Below are positions 12,423 through 64,000 of a stretch of 64,000 nt of DNA, piece after piece; position 1 is the first letter of the stretch; each line of letters opens with the position of its first letter. This stretch comes from Antennarius striatus. Its lineage: Eukaryota > Chordata > Actinopteri > Lophiiformes > Antennariidae. Below the pieces are notes generated by a model. The model had not been told where the DNA came from, did no database searches, and was given only the letters and a program-made list of their open reading frames with translations. The translations under genes and the position numbers were made by a program. The DNA lies in NCBI RefSeq assembly GCF_040054535.1, contig NC_090787.1:14267001-14331000 (forward strand), given 5' to 3'.

Positions 12423-12796
12423 GGGGCAGCAGTGGCTCAGTGGTAGAGTGGGCGGTTGAGCGGGTCGTCCAATGTTCCAAGATCAGCGGTTCAATTCCCG
12501 CTCCAGCCCAAAAACACCCGGAGTGTGAGCTGACAGTGGGAGGTGTCAGCTCATCCCCGGAGCACTGCTGAGGCACCCTTGAGCAAGTCGCCGTCCCCCT
12601 TACAAGCCGCTCCACAAAGGGACTGCCCACCACTCTACCTCCCAATGCATGCTTACAGGCCCCCTTGTGTGTGTTTGTGTGTATAACAGTGGCCTGTACA
12701 CACTACCTGTAATATGCATGCGCGTGATTGATTGATGATTAACATATTAGAGTGTGCGTTCTTAATTTCCCTTCAGGGATCACAACAGTATATAAA
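12423..12796 (+). mobile_element. tRNA-derived SINE, copy 1, near full length
   Basis: The head has Pol III promoter boxes: an A-box-like GTGGCTCAGTGGTAGAGT near 12,432 and a B box GGTTCAATTCC at 12,488-12,498. A body section follows (GTGAGCTGACAGTGGGAGG...CTTGAGCAAG). The 3' tail carries AATTTCCCTTCAGGGATCA, the sort of tail shared with a partner LINE. Two further copies occur in this window on the minus strand (37,105-37,394 and 48,901-49,270). The family name is not assigned. Confidence 0.82.
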
Positions 12797-41430: not shown

Positions 41431-42824
41431 TAACGTTAGAGTCATTTTGTGGAGGACCAATCAGCGTGAAGGATATTTTATCGTCACTCGGAGAGCGTCA
41501 CGGAGGAGGAAGCGCGTTCGCGTGCCAGATCAGGCACGCGCCTGCCGGAAGCAGGAAGTAGGAATATTACATATTAATTCAACCAATTAAAAGTTTCAAG
41601 AGACATTTCTCTTACTGTGGTAATTCTTCATAACACAGTCCCCAGCATTTAAAGGTTCTGGGAAATCAAAACGTAAAAGGAAAAAGCCAGTGACGGAAAT
41701 CATGATGCCACATTGTAGCCAAAATGCATGCAAACACTTTAAGAGATAACCAAGTTTCTTTTATTCCAAAGCTCTGGATCCATGTCTCCTCCAAAGATTG
41801 AATTCATCATATAATGGATGCCACTTTCTCTTCCTCGATATTGTGTGAGGTAAGAGAGAATATTTCATGTAGTTTTTCATTCTGTGTAGCTTTGTGTGCT
41901 TCAAGGTTGCAAGTTGTTATGGCAGCTTCTTCAGGTTGCTTGCTCTTGATCAAATGGCAAAAAGAGGACATTGGGACTCTGGAATGTTGAAGCGAAATCA
42001 TCTGTTTGACACCACCCTGAAGAACCTCTGAGGTTTTGACCCTAGTAGCTTTCGTTCTCTGCCAGCCTGTAGCTTTGTTGATATATTAATAATTTCAGAG
42101 AAATCAAAGTTAAAATTTCACGATAAAATATACATAACATTTACAGTGACATCTCTATATTATTATGTCACTGCATTTCATGGGTCAATGATTCATGTAT
42201 TGAGTTTACTTTATTGATGACTTTGGTAGTTTTGCTCATTCAGGTGTTTCTCAATAATTACTTTCCAAAACATTGAAGTTGATGATGAAAATGCTGATTA
42301 AACACCACCATGAAATTCAAACATTGACTCTGTCCCCTGCAAAATCCTGGGTTAAACCAACCCATGTCAATTAAAACTTTATCTGGTACCATTTTATCTA
42401 TTGTTAACCATGTACTTTCACTCTCAAATGCAAAAATAATATGAATGAAATGAATATTTAGGGAGTACAAAACTCCACTGACGCCCTGTCAGCTAAATGT
42501 ATGTATAGCAAAAACAGCACTCTTCCGTCTTATATGGATGATAGTTTTAATACAAAAGAGGAATTACATTTAATAATATGGGCATGTTAGGAAATAATAC
42601 AATAATAAAACAGTTACAAACTAAAGTAAATTAACACTGAATTTCAATTTTTCCAAATAGAAAAGCTAAATCATCTCACCACAGCTGTACCTATCTTACA
42701 CACATATGCATACAAATACACAAGACAACAACTGAATGTTATATCACTTTAAATCCACCGTCATGAGTACACTATTATTATATATTACTATTGCCTTTTT
42801 TAACTTTTTACATTTTTGAACTAT
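41431..42824 (-). other. slc15a1 3' UTR and spacer to stk24
   Basis: No gene is seen. Minus-strand AATAAA hexamers occur at 42,210-42,215 and 41,760-41,765, either of which could end slc15a1 transcripts. The segment next to stk24 (41,440-41,560) is CpG-richer. Confidence 0.45.
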
Positions 42825-45800
42825 TTACAATTTACTCTCTTTTGGTTTATCTTCCCCCATCTCCCCAGTTAACTCCTTTAGCTGAGTTATGTCATCTTCA
42901 TCTCTGTCATCATCACTAGATTTCCTCTTGAACTGGGCTTCAATTGCTGCTGGGTCAATATAGGTGTAGAAATGGGCCATTATGGAGAAGATAAAGCACA
43001 CCGCCAACAGCAAAGAGGCAAACAAGAGATACTCTGCCCACTTTGAAAAGAAGAAAAACATGATATGAACACGTCATAATGTGTTGATGCTGTCACTCTG
43101 ACACAGAAACAGTTTTCATCTTTCGTTCCTTTAAATGTAGATGTAGTTAGGGAAAACTCCTCATTACCTGCTTGGGAATCTTTGCAAGCTCAGCCACAAT
43201 CAGTACAATGAAGTTGCCAACAGCAACAGTTAACAGCCAACCTGCCTGTAGCACAGCTTTCATGTTATTAGGTGCCTAAGGGACACAAAAGGAAGACATT
43301 AAATAATTAAGTCAAAAACAACCACAATTATATTCATTCATTCAATCATTCATCATGAAACCCGCTTCTTCTGCCGTAGCGGGTAACGGTGTGCTGGTGT
43401 ATATCTCAGCCGACTGAGGGCGTGAAGCAGGGTACACTCTGAGCGTGACGCCAGTGCACCGCGGACCACAATTATAATCGAACTTAAATCAAGTAGCCTT
43501 AGTGATTGCTACTTCATTGTAAATCACTGAAATAATAATAATGTGTGCTGTTTACCTGTGAGTAGGAAAACTCCAGACCAGTAACAGAAAACATCACTTC
43601 ACCAGCAGTAATGAAGAAGTATTGTGGGATCTGGAGAGCAATGTGAACCGAGTTGGGCTTGATGTATTCTATTTCAGTAATAGAGTCCTGACACTAAGGC
43701 AAATGAACAGAGAGAAAAAACAACCACAATGCATTAATTCAACTTCCCAATAATATGTATCAGCCTAAGCCAAAAGATGTAATCCCAAGACATATGTATG
43801 TATATTTAAAATCCACCTACTGCAATTTCATTTGTGGATTGACATGCATGAGTGAATATTTATAATGTCACTGTGTGGGATTGACTCTTAATGAGCTACC
43901 GTGTGTCTGTGTTCATTGTATTGAAGAAATATTCAGAATGGCTCACCACTCTACCTTTAAATGTCTTAAAATGCCAATAGGAATAAGATACATAAGACAA
44001 AAAAACCCCATGACCAATACATAATCAGATCAAAACCTTGATGGTCTTTTTAGGAAATTTGTTCATTTAATCTAACAAGATATTCCAAAGGAAAACCTTT
44101 TACTGATGTTTCTTATTTAGATCCACATTTAAATTGCTTTGAATATAATTACAAATAACATGAAGATAAACAAACCTATAAATGCAGTCTTTTACCATGT
44201 GAAGAATGAGAATGAATCAATGAAAATAAAATTTAATTGGTTGGCTAATGTATTAAATAAGATGTCCTTTTTCACATCTGATCAAGATTTATGATGTTGT
44301 GAGTCTGATGGTGAACTTACACTCGGCCCAAAGACTAATGTGCTTGGGATGAAGACGGAATATGAACTTCCAAATCCAAACTCCCGAATGTATTCACATG
44401 ACTGTGACTCACTCTGTATGATGAAGGTGACCCTGATAATAATGAACAAAAACCACTTTATTAAATCATATTACAAGAGTCTACTTATAAATATAGTGAC
44501 TTACAGAAGGGGAAACAAATTCCTTACTTTCCATTTTTTAATATGGTGTTATTGGAATAACTGAATGCTTCAATTTCTGTAATTTCAGAGGTGAGTATGT
44601 TCAGTGTTTTGTTCATTCCATTTATAAATCTGAAATGGGAATACATTGAGTAAAATTATTACAGCTGTAATATTTTACAATAAAAAGACCAAAATACACA
44701 CAGGGATTGCTTTAGTTTAAAAAGTGGCACTGAAGATGAAGTTTAAAGCTGCAGCTCTGTGATTTCCAAAAAAATATTTGTCACTAAATATAAAAATCAT
44801 TAGTATTACAGTACTGTATTTCAACTGATCAGTTAAGTTGATAATTTTTGATTCAACTCACCGGATTGCATTTCTGCCTTTTTCCGGTTTCACAGTTAAA
44901 TCTTCAGTCTGAGGAAATAAGATGCTGGTTATTTTAATTCTTAAATATCTCTGGTCTGGCCTTTATTTTCATTATTTCTGTGCTTTAACTAACCAGTAGC
45001 CATTCATCAGAAAAGTTTGAAGGGATCAGAAGTGTTCGTCGCTGCCTTTTGGTCATAGAAATAGTTTTCACTACTGTGTCATTGATTGAAATGTTAACAC
45101 TTTCTGTTTCAAATGTGAAGAAGTCATCACTGGCCTTCAAAACAAAAGAAACTGTTAAAATGGTGCAATAATAGACAAGATTGACAGAATCTAATGCAAT
45201 TACTTTTCAGAAATCAAGTTGAGGATGTACTGTACCTTATTTGCAGGAAGTACCAGAGGTTCATTGCCTTCCAGATTAACTGTCACTGGATTACTACCCA
45301 TGTTAAGCAATTTTAACTGTGTTTGGGTGGCTGATGGGAAGACAGGCAATGTTTTCTGAAAGGTAAGAATACAGATGAGCAAGTTATGTGACTTTGTACT
45401 TTTTAAATAAATGATCATAAATGGTGTTTTCTACTTACATCAATTTCCAGCTGCACCAGAGCAGCACAGACAAACGCTATAGCTGCCAGAAACATTCCCA
45501 CCGTCATTCTTTTCAAAGGCCTGTTGAATTAATATTTAGCTCAGTCACTAATATGTAAAAAAAATTACTGTTTTTATGACTGTCATTTTTTTTTTTTTTT
45601 GGTTCACAAGTAACTAGATACTGGTCTCATGTCTGCAGGTTCGATAATTTCCTGTGCAGAATGTCATTTTCAGAATCACATCAGCCTTCATCACTGAGCT
45701 TTTTTCTAACTCTGTTTTCAGTTGCAGCCCTACATGTTGTGAAATTTTCTTATTTGATGTCGCAGATGGATAAACCACTATCACTTGGTCCTTGGATATG

Positions 45801-48578
45801 TCAATCTTTTAGTAAATTTAGTGCAATGAAGGAATTCTGAAGAGGATAGAGATTTTTGTTCCGACAAATAAATAAATATAAGAAATAAAACAAAACTCTG
45901 CATATTCGAAAACGAAATATTATTACCATCAATATACTTGTGAAGGCCTGGCCTGTATGTATATAGACTGGTTGATACTGTATATGGCCTCAGAAGTCAC
46001 AGCAGTACTTACGTGAAGTTCAGACCACATTTTTTAATCAGAGGATAGATGAGACTGTCCATGATGGGCACCAGCGTCAGGATCAGGATGGGATTGACCG
46101 TCTTCAAAACATTAATTACAGTGAAAACACAACACAGAAAAACATTCAGTCAAATGAAACATGATTTTAATTTTTTCACTTACCTGCATTTGATCAGGCT
46201 GGATTACAAGCAGACCCTGCAGATACAAAAACAAAAAAGACATCAAGAAATATTTTCCTTGATTAGGATATATTTATGTTTAATCCAATTATCACACTTA
46301 CAAAGTTCCCATCCATGGTGGTTGCTTGAAGAGTCCACCTTGACCCCTTTAATGGAAATGCAGAGGTTGGTACAGTGCTCTCTTAAAGCATTTTTTTATG
46401 GAAGAGTATGTTGACAGTACCTTTTGGTCAAACAGCGTCCAGAACATTGGAAGTGGGGTGTACAAAAGCAGGACCTTCAGAACCATCTTTATTTGAGCAA
46501 TAAGGAGTTTCTTTAACACAGACACAAAAGCAATGTTGTTATTTGACTGATGAAGTACTTTGATTGCAGTTTAACTCTAGAGAATTAAATAAAGAGAAAA
46601 CTTACATCATACTTTTCCTCAGACCAGTCCATCCAGTGCTCCCTCTTTGGGTACTGACTGCTTCTGTGCCTGAAGCGGTTTTTGAGGGCAAACTGAATGA
46701 GAGACATAAGATGGAAAAATGTTTTAAGAAAAACCCAGAGCAGCTGTTGTTAAAACTTAACGCAGCCTGTGTTGATGAAAAGACTCACCCCTATACATTT
46801 ACACACATCCATCATGATGTTTCCCTGTGGTTCAGCTTTATAGTACATAGGGCTTCCAGCCACAAACACCACTGTCAAAAATCACATCAACATTATCAGC
46901 GTACGGTATGTAATGCAAATATTTACATTAGTAATGCACAGAGTGAAAGCCTCCAAACGGTTTAGACGTACCAAGTGCAACTACCATTAGTGCTGCAGGG
47001 ACACCGAAGGCCAGAGGATAACACTCCTGCTTGGTGTGGATGCCACATTCCTCAGCTGCAAGAAGTAAAGCAGCATCAAATTTCAATTTCATTGTCACTC
47101 ATGCTCAGAGACAATCCCAGTTCATCCTGAGCTTCATTTTACACTCTACCTCTAAGGATTGGAGTGATGATAGTTGACAGGAGACTCCCACCATTGATGC
47201 ACAAGTAGAATACAGAGAAGAACGTTCTCCTCTGTGATTCCTGCACAGACGAAAGAATCAGTGATCATTTATCTTGTGTCACCTGCATGTTTTGCACTGT
47301 CGTATGGGATGTGCCTGATATCACTACTACTTGAGGCTAACATATCCCAAAACAAAGAAGTATGCCCAAGTCTCGCAATTTCTTTATAACTCCACAGACC
47401 AAGATTTTTTAGCATTTTCAAATTTTTAGATTTCCCCTGCAATCAATGCCTTTTTATATGATACCAAATGGGGAAACATGTATGTAGTTTCCCTGATGCC
47501 ACAGGGACTATATACATTAGCCCTAAGACCCGAGACATTGATTTTCAAACTTTTTTTGGTTTTTCTTGTAACATCTCATTTAGCAGCATCATCAGATTAA
47601 AATAAAAAATTGTCCAATACCTGCATTGAGATTAGTGGCACTCTTTTCCTTATGTCTATTTCTAATTCACTAATCTTAACATGCTGATATGTTTAACTGA
47701 GATGAACATGATAAAAATCAAGTCTGAAAAATATCAGTGTGCAAACATTGTTACTGTGATCATATTAGTACACAACAGAGAGCATTTAGGTGAAAGCACT
47801 GGATGGTCAGGTAGGAGTAGAGGGGTAAAGTTCTAACCTGATTGTCACCAAATTGGTCCCCACCAAAGGCGGCAACACAAGGTTTGATGCCCCCAGTGCC
47901 CAGAGCAATGAGGAAGAGACCCACCATGGACAGTGCACTGTGAGGAGAGGACCAGGACCATGAGTACTGAGGAGTGGAATATAAACCGCCTGCAGAGAAC
48001 CCTTTTAGTAGTTTTTGACTCAGTTATTGCAATGCTAATTTTCTACTCATACTGCAAATTTTCAGAATATAAACTCACACATGAAAGGTCATGTTATCAG
48101 GTGTCCCGTCTTTATTCTTGTCTGTGATGTCATTGATTGCACTGACAGACATCGCAACCTGGCCGATTGCGTAGACAATGGACAAGTAGATGATAGTCCT
48201 TTAAAAGAAAGAGGGAAATAGATCATCATCAGAGAAGTTCTTCCTTCCTTTATTCAGTGAAAATCTCAACATTAAAAAAAACAAACTAATATAAGTATTG
48301 GACTTGAGTAAAAATAACGTGTCATCTAAAGTAATTGGAAAAATAAATGAAACAATCAGCATTTGATATTAAAAATTATGAAACATTTCATTATCTAGGA
48401 GGGTTTCAATAAATATCAACAAAAGTAGCCACTCACTTAAACTTTCCCAACCAGGAGTCTGCAACAATGGCCCCAAGGATAGGGGTCAAGTAGCACAGGG
48501 CCACAAAAGTGTGATAGATGGATGTGGCCAAGTCATCGTCCCACTTCAAGAAATACCTAAAATACAGCACCAGGACAG

Positions 48579-48661
<83 letters not shown>

Positions 48662-49876
48662 GGGGGTTGTTAGGGTTTAGGTCATCTAAGTTATTGTAAA
48701 GAATCATCAAAACTGCTTGCGGTGATTGTAGTTCTGGAATGAAATGATCTCACCTCTCATGCCATAGTAGGAAAACCTCTCGCAGAACTCATTCACAACG
48801 ATGAAGAAGATGCTGAGTGGGTAACCAAACACCACACTGCTCTGATGGATTAATGGCAGGGCAGAGGAGAAACGTAATTTTTTGAAAATGTATTTTTCTT
48901 TTGTATACTATATTGATCCCCAAAGGGAAATTAGTTAGTTGCACACTCTGGGTCACGCTGTTAGTTCTTAGTCATGTATATTTAGTGTGTACAGGCCCTG
49001 TAACACACACACAGGGGTCTGAACGCATGCAGTGTGGGGGCAGTCGAGTGACGAGCAGACAAGGCGCTATCCCCTTTACAAGTTGCCCTATTGAGCAACT
49101 TGTAAAGGGGATAGCACCTTTCTCAAGGGCGACTCAGCAGTGCTCAGGAGGTGAGCTGACACCTCCCACTGTCAGCTCACACTCCGAGGTGGCTGGGCGG
49201 GAGCAGGAATGGAACCCCCGATCTTTGGAACATTGGACGACCCACTCTACCGCTGAGTCACTGCCGCCCCAACATCATGAAACGAACGGTAATTTATCAT
49301 TCTTGATTGTTGCATTCCTTATGAAACAATATTGTTAACCTATTCTTTACTATTTTTCATTTTTTGCTATCTAGATACTTCATCCTGCAGTTAAGAAGAC
49401 TGAACAAAATGTTCATTCCTTTCAAACAGCACATTTGTGATATTGTACATACAGTATTATTAGAAATTGTTTATACAGTACCATATAAACCTGCTTTTTC
49501 TCCAGGTAATACAATTATTGTAGTTTATAATTATATCAGTTCTGCTTACTTTAATTAATACGTACCTTTCCCCTTCCCCTGGTTTGATTTGGGTCTTTGA
49601 TTTCTGCACATAAAATGAAACTAGATTAGCTAACCAGCTCTTTCTCACATTTAGAGAACATGAGGTCCTTACAAGCTGCATACTTGTGAATTTATATTCA
49701 GAGCCATTTTAAATATCAGCTACGACTGAAACAGGTTTTCCATAAAAATAAAACAAAAAAATAGTAAATAATAAATCTGCATCTTAAAACTCTGTAATGT
49801 CTACCATGCTGGATTTTGAAAGAACTCATAAATCACACAGACACAAACAGAAATACAGTACGGACTTACCTGTCAT
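42825..49876 (-). CDS. slc15a1: Oligopeptide transporter PEPT1 (SLC15A1), complete
   Basis: There are 23 coding exons (minus): 49870-49876, 49566-49603, 48754-48841, 48437-48578, 48079-48198, 47838-47937, 47150-47240, 46972-47055, 46789-46871, 46606-46692, 46421-46510, 46302-46346, 46184-46216, 46013-46101, 45439-45520, 45236-45355, 44994-45134, 44862-44908, 44528-44629, 44321-44432, 43556-43693, 43168-43275 and 42825-43040. They sum to 2163 nt, or 720 aa (human 708). PEPT1 is the proton-coupled di/tripeptide transporter of the intestinal brush border. Visible features are the ExxER proton motif (E33-F-C-E36-R37), essential His (H67, human H57) in SIYHTF, PTR2 signatures [15 protein letters not shown] and [11 protein letters not shown], the extracellular domain between TM9 and TM10, and C-terminal helices ([16 protein letters not shown]). 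Exon 1 holds only ATGACAG. The start follows from phase: the acceptor at 48,842 (CCATCAG) makes MTEIKDPNQ... read through in frame. The acceptor of coding exon 4 is a CA repeat. Confidence 0.94.
43331..43470. repeat. Dispersed repeat fragment (ATTCATTC...CCGCCGTAG type)
   Basis: An (ATTC)n head is followed by ACCCGCTTCTTCTGCCGTAG and CTCAGCCGACTGAGGGCG. A shorter relative occurs at 57,897-57,950 (TATTCATTCATTCATC... TTCTTCCGCCGTCG). It lies in a slc15a1 intron and is non-coding. The family is not named. Confidence 0.55.
48579..48675 (-). promoter_or_regulatory. slc15a1: slc15a1 coding exon 4 acceptor formed by a (CA)40 tract
   Basis: On the minus strand an uninterrupted (CA)40 (plus-strand GT 48,581-48,660) runs straight into the acceptor CAG before exon base 48,578. 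There is no conventional polypyrimidine tract. The best branch-site match upstream of the repeat is CCCTAAC (minus; plus 48,669-48,675), putting its branch A about 91 nt from the AG. The acceptor is fixed by phase: ...YYGMR at the end of exon 3 joins AVLVLYF here, as in other PEPT1 proteins. Confidence 0.85.
48581..48660. repeat. (GT)40 microsatellite at a slc15a1 splice acceptor
   Basis: Eighty bases of perfect GT repeat, the longest pure tract in the window. It lies two bases from slc15a1 coding exon 4. Confidence 0.97.
48901..49270 (-). mobile_element. tRNA-derived SINE, copy 3, with extra palindrome
   Basis: Reverse orientation in slc15a1 intron 2. The LINE-like tail is at its low-coordinate end (TTGATCCCCAAAGGGAAATT) and the tRNA-like head at the high end (CTCTACCGCTGAGTCACTGC). 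It contains a perfect 21-bp inverted repeat (49,066-49,086 and 49,095-49,115) that the other two copies lack. Confidence 0.8.
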
Positions 49877-49924
49877 GTTTTGAGTTGACTTGTGCACTTT
49901 CTATTGCAGTCTGGTGCTCATTTG

Positions 49925-50235
49925 GATAGACAAAACAGAGAGCAGTTAATTATCCAACCTTAAGTGTTACTTCACTGAGACATGGGGGAGTGTCCCTGTA
50001 ATAAATAAACTCATTAGCTCTTGATCTGTCTTCCACAATGCTGACTGTACTGTTTTTATGACGGGTGAGAACATAAGATATAACACATGGGGAGTCATCT
50101 ATATTCAGCACCTGCTTCATAAAAGGTATTAACTCCCATGATCACCACAATTTTCAGGGCGTAAGCGCATAAATAAACTCCATAAATGCAGACATGAAAC
50201 AAAAGCTCGAGTCCAAGTGAAGGGAAATGAGTTAT
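49925..50235 (-). promoter_or_regulatory. slc15a1: Short dock9-slc15a1 spacer with three CDX-like sites
   Basis: CATAAA motifs occur at 50,118-50,123, 50,168-50,173 and 50,181-50,186, matching the core of CDX-family binding sites. CDX2 is established as a driver of intestinal PEPT1 expression in mammals. The spacer lies between the inferred dock9 poly(A) signal and the slc15a1 first exon, so it is the likely slc15a1 promoter. The transcription start is not visible, and the sites are short enough to arise by chance. Confidence 0.35.
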
Positions 50236-50241
50236 TTTATT
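50236..50241 (-). terminator. dock9: Candidate polyadenylation signal (AATAAA on minus), dock9
   Basis: TTTATT on the plus strand lies about 920 bp beyond the dock9 stop codon. It would make a compact 3' UTR ending about 0.36 kb from the slc15a1 start codon. Confidence 0.4.
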
Positions 50242-51159
50242 TAAAAGAAAAGCATTAAGAACAATCTGTTACAGCAGAACAGTAACTTTGCGTTAAATAA
50301 AACAGCTTCTCAAATATAAAACAATTTCAATAAACACTAGAACGGTAAAAGCTTCATATAACTTCCACAGTAGGTATAGTGTCTGTTTTCACTCTCCCTT
50401 TTGCCGGAAGGTGAACATCATCTTTACAGTGTATGAGCCACACACAGCATGATAATTTGCAAATATTGCACCCTTTTTTTTCTATGAACAGTAATAAACA
50501 ACTTGGGATATACTTTGCTTGCAGTGGCTTTAAATATGTAGAAAAGACTCCCATTCTACATGAAATAAGGTCAAAAGCTAACATGAGTCACAAGAGGCTC
50601 TTTTGCATTTTTGTAGAAATATAACGTCATGTACAAGAGGATGCGTGACAATGAATGCAGCATATGTTGTTCATGAAGACATCAATACAGTGGTTTATAA
50701 AAGTGGAATACTGTACATATAAAAAAACACAGTGTGGAGCATTAATAAAATACACAAAAATGGGCTTTTGGTGGTGCGGTGGGTGTGATGTAATGACATG
50801 CATATTAAGGATCAATACAGGAATGTTTCCATAGAAACCATTACTCAATCTTTTCAGGTAGAAACAGGCTGAAGCAGACAGTATACGTCTTGTCTCACAG
50901 CAGGAACAAAGCTGTCGTTTCTCCAGCTCCAGTATCAGGCTTCACCTTAGGAATTTCATTTGGCCACATCCAACAGTTACCATGCCTTGTGTGTACATTA
51001 AATAAGTCCAGTGCCTTGGTCATAGATGACGGAGAAAGGGAGTCAGAGCTGTCTGTGCTTTGGTAAGTTTCCCTTTAAGCTGAGTGAAGTTTGAGGTTCA
51101 GAAGTAGTATCTCTGGCGTGCCCCCAGACCGCTGAATTCACGGCTAACCCAGGCAACTA
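50242..51159 (-). other. dock9: dock9 3' UTR
   Basis: No open frame of note lies between the dock9 stop and the candidate poly(A) signal. Confidence 0.45.

Positions 51160-64000
<12,841 letters not shown>

Follow-up and report, generated by a model that had tools for sequence, protein, structure and literature searches.

The exon 4 acceptor of slc15a1 in Antennarius striatus is built on a perfect (CA)40 microsatellite and probably works with a distant branch point

Can a vertebrate splice acceptor work when the tract in front of it is a pure dinucleotide repeat? This question is raised by slc15a1 (PEPT1) of Antennarius striatus, the coding span of which runs from start to stop codon over positions 42825..49876 on the minus strand of the window (the whole stretch of 64,000 nucleotides analysed; the features of the gene are given on this strand). 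The gene model comprises 23 coding exons, with coding exon 6 placed at 47937, and gives an uninterrupted coding sequence of 2163 nt with zero internal stops and a product of 720 aa. Residues 1-366 of this product matched the PTR2 domain (4e-100), residues 12-366 aligned without gaps to the SLC15A1 chain 7s8u_A (8.6e-188), and the SLC15A1 chain matches (8.6e-188 and 1e-186) were better than that to SLC15A2 (2.5e-140). Judged by its PTR2/POT domain and its best match to SLC15A1, the window gene is SLC15A1 (PEPT1). Coding exon 3 (48754..48841, 88 nt), the own acceptor of which is set by phase, encodes E33FCER, and coding exon 4 (48437..48578, 142 nt) encodes the residues AVLVLYF...LGKFK including H67, which aligns with position 57 of the solved SLC15A1 chain, a position we take to be the essential histidine of mammalian PEPT1. 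The two exons are separated by intron 3 (48579..48753, 175 nt, donor GTGAGA), and 16 of the 22 introns of the gene are shorter than 250 nt. The codon split between exon 3 (last bases ATGAGAG) and exon 4 (first bases CTGTCC) is GCT (A45), by which the phase of the junction is fixed; from this reading frame and from homology we infer that the acceptor AG of exon 4 is used. The ungapped SLC15A1 match, the intact frame and the presence of this 142-nt exon in two related genes of the genome bear out the gene, junction and phase assigned to exon 4 in a preliminary description of this locus. In the surroundings of the gene, an upstream gene, likewise on the minus strand, has its last exon at 51284-51160, and no known RNA family was found at gathering score within 42000-52500.

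The perfect (CA)40 microsatellite (48580..48659) takes the place of the polypyrimidine tract and has no AG inside; TRF called the tract at 48580-48660, with 40.5 copies and 100% matches. The A of the acceptor AG (48579..48580) is the final letter of the repeat, which is followed by a G and then by exon base 48578, confirming that the (CA)40 stands directly at the minus-strand acceptor and that a polypyrimidine tract is absent, both of which had been claimed at the outset. The 20 nt preceding exon 4 are 50% pyrimidine and contain zero T, and the corresponding values for the remaining 21 slc15a1 acceptors are 45-90% pyrimidine and 30-70% T. For scoring, a leave-one-out position-weight model was trained on slc15a1's own acceptors (21 sites, branch point ignored). 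The exon 4 acceptor received the lowest of the 22 scores (-11.6), followed by exon 9 (-10.4), which lacks any repeat; because the model was trained on 21 sites and exon 9 scored nearly as low, it is not to be pressed. AGs outscoring the true one were found at -107 (-9.0), +22 (-4.9), +35 (7.0) and +120 (7.0) and likewise at -155 (-5.6) and +137 (-5.4). The exonic AGs at +22, +35 and +120 correspond to 48557, 48544 and 48459, respectively.

Across the repeat from the exon lies CCCTAAC (48668..48674), a candidate branch site whose A (48670) lies 91 nt upstream of the acceptor G and 92 nt upstream of the exon. It is the sole yTnAy match in the AG-free zone upstream of the acceptor, which with 105 nt is the longest among the 22 slc15a1 introns (next 87, 77 and 75 nt). 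The preliminary description, which had placed CCCTAAC about 91 nt away on the far side of the repeat, holds in this respect, with no AG in between. For humans, PMC9508853 quotes 29.3 +/- 11.9 nt as the usual branch distance. According to the accessible part of PMC1431707, AG exclusion zones mark human exons with distant branch points, and 838 of 67,334 human introns have a zone of at least 100 nt, one-half to one-fifth of which were estimated to use distant branch points. Intron 3 shows the marks of such introns, namely an AG exclusion zone of at least about 100 nt and a good branch consensus far upstream with none near the AG. Exon 4 resembles the exons described by Gooding et al. 2006 (PMC1431707, accessible part) in its 105-nt AG-free zone, its strong far-upstream branch consensus and its acceptor being the first downstream AG; in those exons, however, a pyrimidine tract usually lies beside the distant branch, whereas in slc15a1 only AACCCCCAA and then pure CA follow a branch candidate that was read from the sequence.

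We consider it likely from these features that the acceptor of exon 4 works, with its branch point far upstream, in a short intron that would be scanned across the AG-free CA repeat. U2 snRNP would most likely assemble on CCCTAAC upstream of (CA)40, and after the first splicing step the spliceosome would pick the first downstream AG, which is that of exon 4 because the CA repeat holds no AG. Scanning of the spliceosome to the first AG past the branch point is well established. The branch point might instead be an A other than that of CCCTAAC, either within the repeat or 5' of it.

A PTR2 family search of the genome gave 15 matches in four places: the window, C24, C12 near 2.3 Mb, and C3. The paralogue set, drawn from this one search and three fetched stretches (L024, L025 and L026) such that further copies may exist, contains a second PEPT1-like gene (L025, on C24; exon 4 87.5% identical over 48 residues), a PEPT2-like gene (L026; exon 4 70.8% identical) and a more distant relative that is SLC15A4-like by our reading (L024). 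In both L025 and L026 exon 4 is 142 nt long at the matching junction, and the introns before it (83 and 198 nt, respectively) have pyrimidine-rich acceptors with no CA repeat, scoring -0.2 and -5.1 in the slc15a1-trained model. As these two acceptors are ordinary and pyrimidine-rich, (CA)40 is most simply explained as having been acquired later by the window gene, and the comparison of the sequences indicates that it is probably derived. It would most likely have expanded between an older branch site and the AG of a once pyrimidine-rich junction, and may have been tolerated because the intron is short, the donor is fair and CA units bring no AG. Teleosts usually have two PepT1-type genes (PMC10475540, PMC6923934, accessible parts), and the earlier designation of slc15a1 as the main dietary peptide transporter is weakened by the second PEPT1-like gene, which lies on another contig and has an ordinary acceptor at the exon 4 junction.

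Dinucleotide repeats at acceptors were also found in other members of the family. The exon 8 acceptor of the second PEPT1-like gene (L025:3986-4031) consists of (GT)17 followed by TGTGGTTTCCAG, and an exon of the SLC15A4-like gene (L024:5392-5463) has an acceptor tract made up of (GT)17 with additional, shorter GT stretches ahead of GATCCCAG. GT-repeat acceptors were thus present in two of the three other SLC15-type genes fetched and CA-repeat acceptors in none of the three, so that dinucleotide acceptors look ordinary in this genome and the view of them as a peculiarity of slc15a1 loses ground. In a sample of 282,902 bp (the window and the fetched stretches, overlaps removed), we counted 53 CA/GT runs of at least 8 units (median 21 units), of which only two, with 62 and 61 units, exceed the 40 units at exon 4; (CA)40 is long but not exceptional. 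The longest run counted, (CA)62, lies together with a (CA)22 upstream of the PEPT2-like gene (L026:1551-1748). (CA)40 is the sole pure CA run among the 53 that was recognisable as a coding acceptor, the others having been judged by eye from open frames. Taking the sampled run density and assuming on the order of 200,000 introns, we roughly estimate that in the absence of selection this 548-Mb genome would have CA runs beside some tens of acceptors. By title, none of the papers found in a literature search that covered few subscription journals dealt with slc15a1 splicing or microsatellites in fish or with microsatellite splice acceptors in zebrafish, although published work on these subjects may exist.

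The consequences of mis-splicing were modelled. Skipping of exon 4 leads to a stop at codon 81, retention of intron 3 to a stop at codon 60, use of the AG at +22 or +35 to a stop at codon 48 each, use of the AG at -107 to a stop at codon 91, and skipping of exons 3 and 4 to a stop at codon 38; only the AG at +120 keeps the frame, giving 680 aa with 40 residues lost from A45 on, including H67. The expectation that skipping the 142-nt exon would shift the frame and lose H67 is therefore correct, but skipping is not the likeliest outcome: since intron 3, at 175 nt, is one of 16 introns below 250 nt among the 22 of the gene, the usual size for intron definition, retention is the likelier failure. 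Pairing across the intron is the mode attributed to short introns (PMC6047831), although the accessible part of that paper connects it with GC-rich ones, and an intron that is half CA and lies in an AT-rich gene need not be of that kind. Failure at the exon 4 acceptor might mainly take the form of intron retention and decay.

Could the tract itself act as a regulator? Variable CA repeats are reportedly bound by hnRNP L, for example in eNOS (Hui et al. 2003). Like that of eNOS, the slc15a1 repeat is intronic and of a variable-type length, but the eNOS repeat reportedly lies inside an intron, whereas the slc15a1 repeat is the acceptor tract itself. The (TG)mTn tract of CFTR exon 9 likewise is said to place a dinucleotide repeat in the acceptor region, though there the TG units are followed by a T tract, whereas exon 4 of slc15a1 has pure CA and no T tract. 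With (CA)40, exon 4 also has the long CA repeat close to an exon that characterises the hnRNP L-regulated class, the high-affinity motifs of hnRNP L being CACA/ACAC (PMC3796306, accessible part). From its known binding to CA, hnRNP L probably coats the tract, and both helping and hindering would be possible. The reading in which the CA tract is an active regulator, bound hnRNP L competing with U2AF such that PEPT1 output tracks repeat length, gains from the early stop in every modelled mis-splice but the one at +120, from the ability of hnRNP L with PTB to block U2AF65 (PMC3796306), and from a preprint on human cortex (PMC13174678) in which fine-mapped splice-altering repeats are enriched at most 100 bp upstream of their exons and binding by hnRNP L varies with the length of AC repeats, as far as the accessible parts of these sources go. 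However, hnRNP L binds the exon and not an intronic CA run in the case treated in the accessible part of PMC3796306, and the second PEPT1-like gene may buffer dosage; on balance we regard this reading as unlikely. An effect of repeat length on slc15a1 dosage is mechanically coherent and, as a fair hypothesis, possible: each CA unit would add 2 nt to the distance between branch and AG, by which length could conceivably tune efficiency. A decidedly doubtful extension is that of a one-sided AC acceptor, in which pure CA would be the whole branch-to-AG spacer, without a pyrimidine tract or GU partner, and a hypervariable allele would set slc15a1 output, buffered by the second PEPT1-like gene.

The length of (CA)40 rests on a single assembly, which might have misrepresented a shorter or imperfect repeat, but the 53 CA/GT runs in the sampled 283 kb show a smooth length spread up to 62 units, and we consider such an artefact very unlikely.

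Fish introns with AC and GT repeats offer another comparison. Lin et al. 2016 (Genome Res) are said to have described U2AF2-independent AC/GT-repeat introns of fish, and Yeo et al. 2004 (PNAS) reportedly described AC/GT-repeat splicing enhancers in fish introns. The slc15a1 acceptor, known here from its sequence, is like the latter in that a short fish intron carries an AC repeat close to a weak splice site. According to the accessible parts of two reviews, U2AF2 is replaced by a hairpin between dinucleotide repeats at opposite intron ends, as reported for zebrafish (PMC9198270) and for fish and lamprey (PMC7404189), and the CA tract of intron 3 could by analogy pair with a GU tract for splicing without U2AF2. 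Intron 3 shares with the U2AF2-independent introns described there its shortness and a long AC tract at the 3' end, (CA)40, but whereas their opposite-end repeats bridge the intron, no GT repeat was found in the first 95 nt of intron 3 and an internal bridge is lacking. The best duplex between the first 60 nt of intron 3 and the repeat reached -3.0 kcal/mol, where a model (GU)17 gave -68.4, and a bridge within intron 3 was rejected for want of a GU tract and of a stable duplex. A fold from exon 3 to exon 4 left nearly the whole repeat unpaired, and 86 of 100 shuffles were at least as stable; an RNA structure joining branch and AG was rejected, the fold being no better than shuffles. The sole GT run of at least 4 units on the transcript strand in 42000-52000, the (GT)5 of intron 2 (49003..49012), could pair with the CA tract (-16.8 kcal/mol), but it lies upstream of exon 3 and not at the opposite end of intron 3. 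Splicing by an AC/GT bridge is accordingly highly improbable. The (GT)5 is carried by a copy of a dispersed element, SINE-like by look, in intron 2 (49270-48998, minus strand); a second copy is located near 12442 (plus strand), and the core of the element is GGTAGAGTGGG, with a TGTGTGTG stretch close to one of its ends.

That splicing makes poor use of the (CA)40 acceptor and the transcript actually made, with a changed protein, mostly runs through the in-frame AG at +120 or others is scarcely credible, for although this AG scores 7.0, keeps the frame and yields 680 aa, it drops 40 residues from A45, with H67, out of the block that aligns gap-free to the solved SLC15A1.

The exon 4 acceptor of slc15a1, repeat-built and probably with a distant branch in a short fish intron, fits a known class of repeat-bearing fish introns. 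CA/GT repeats, unlike GA or CT/AG repeats, may be able to grow between branch point and AG because they bring no AG on the transcript strand. Exon 4 offers a clean natural test case for the range over which the vertebrate spliceosome scans a repeat without a pyrimidine tract, and also for whether an acceptor microsatellite tunes how strongly a gene important for nutrition is expressed. The second PEPT1-like gene, its acceptor at the matching junction being ordinary, serves as a built-in control.
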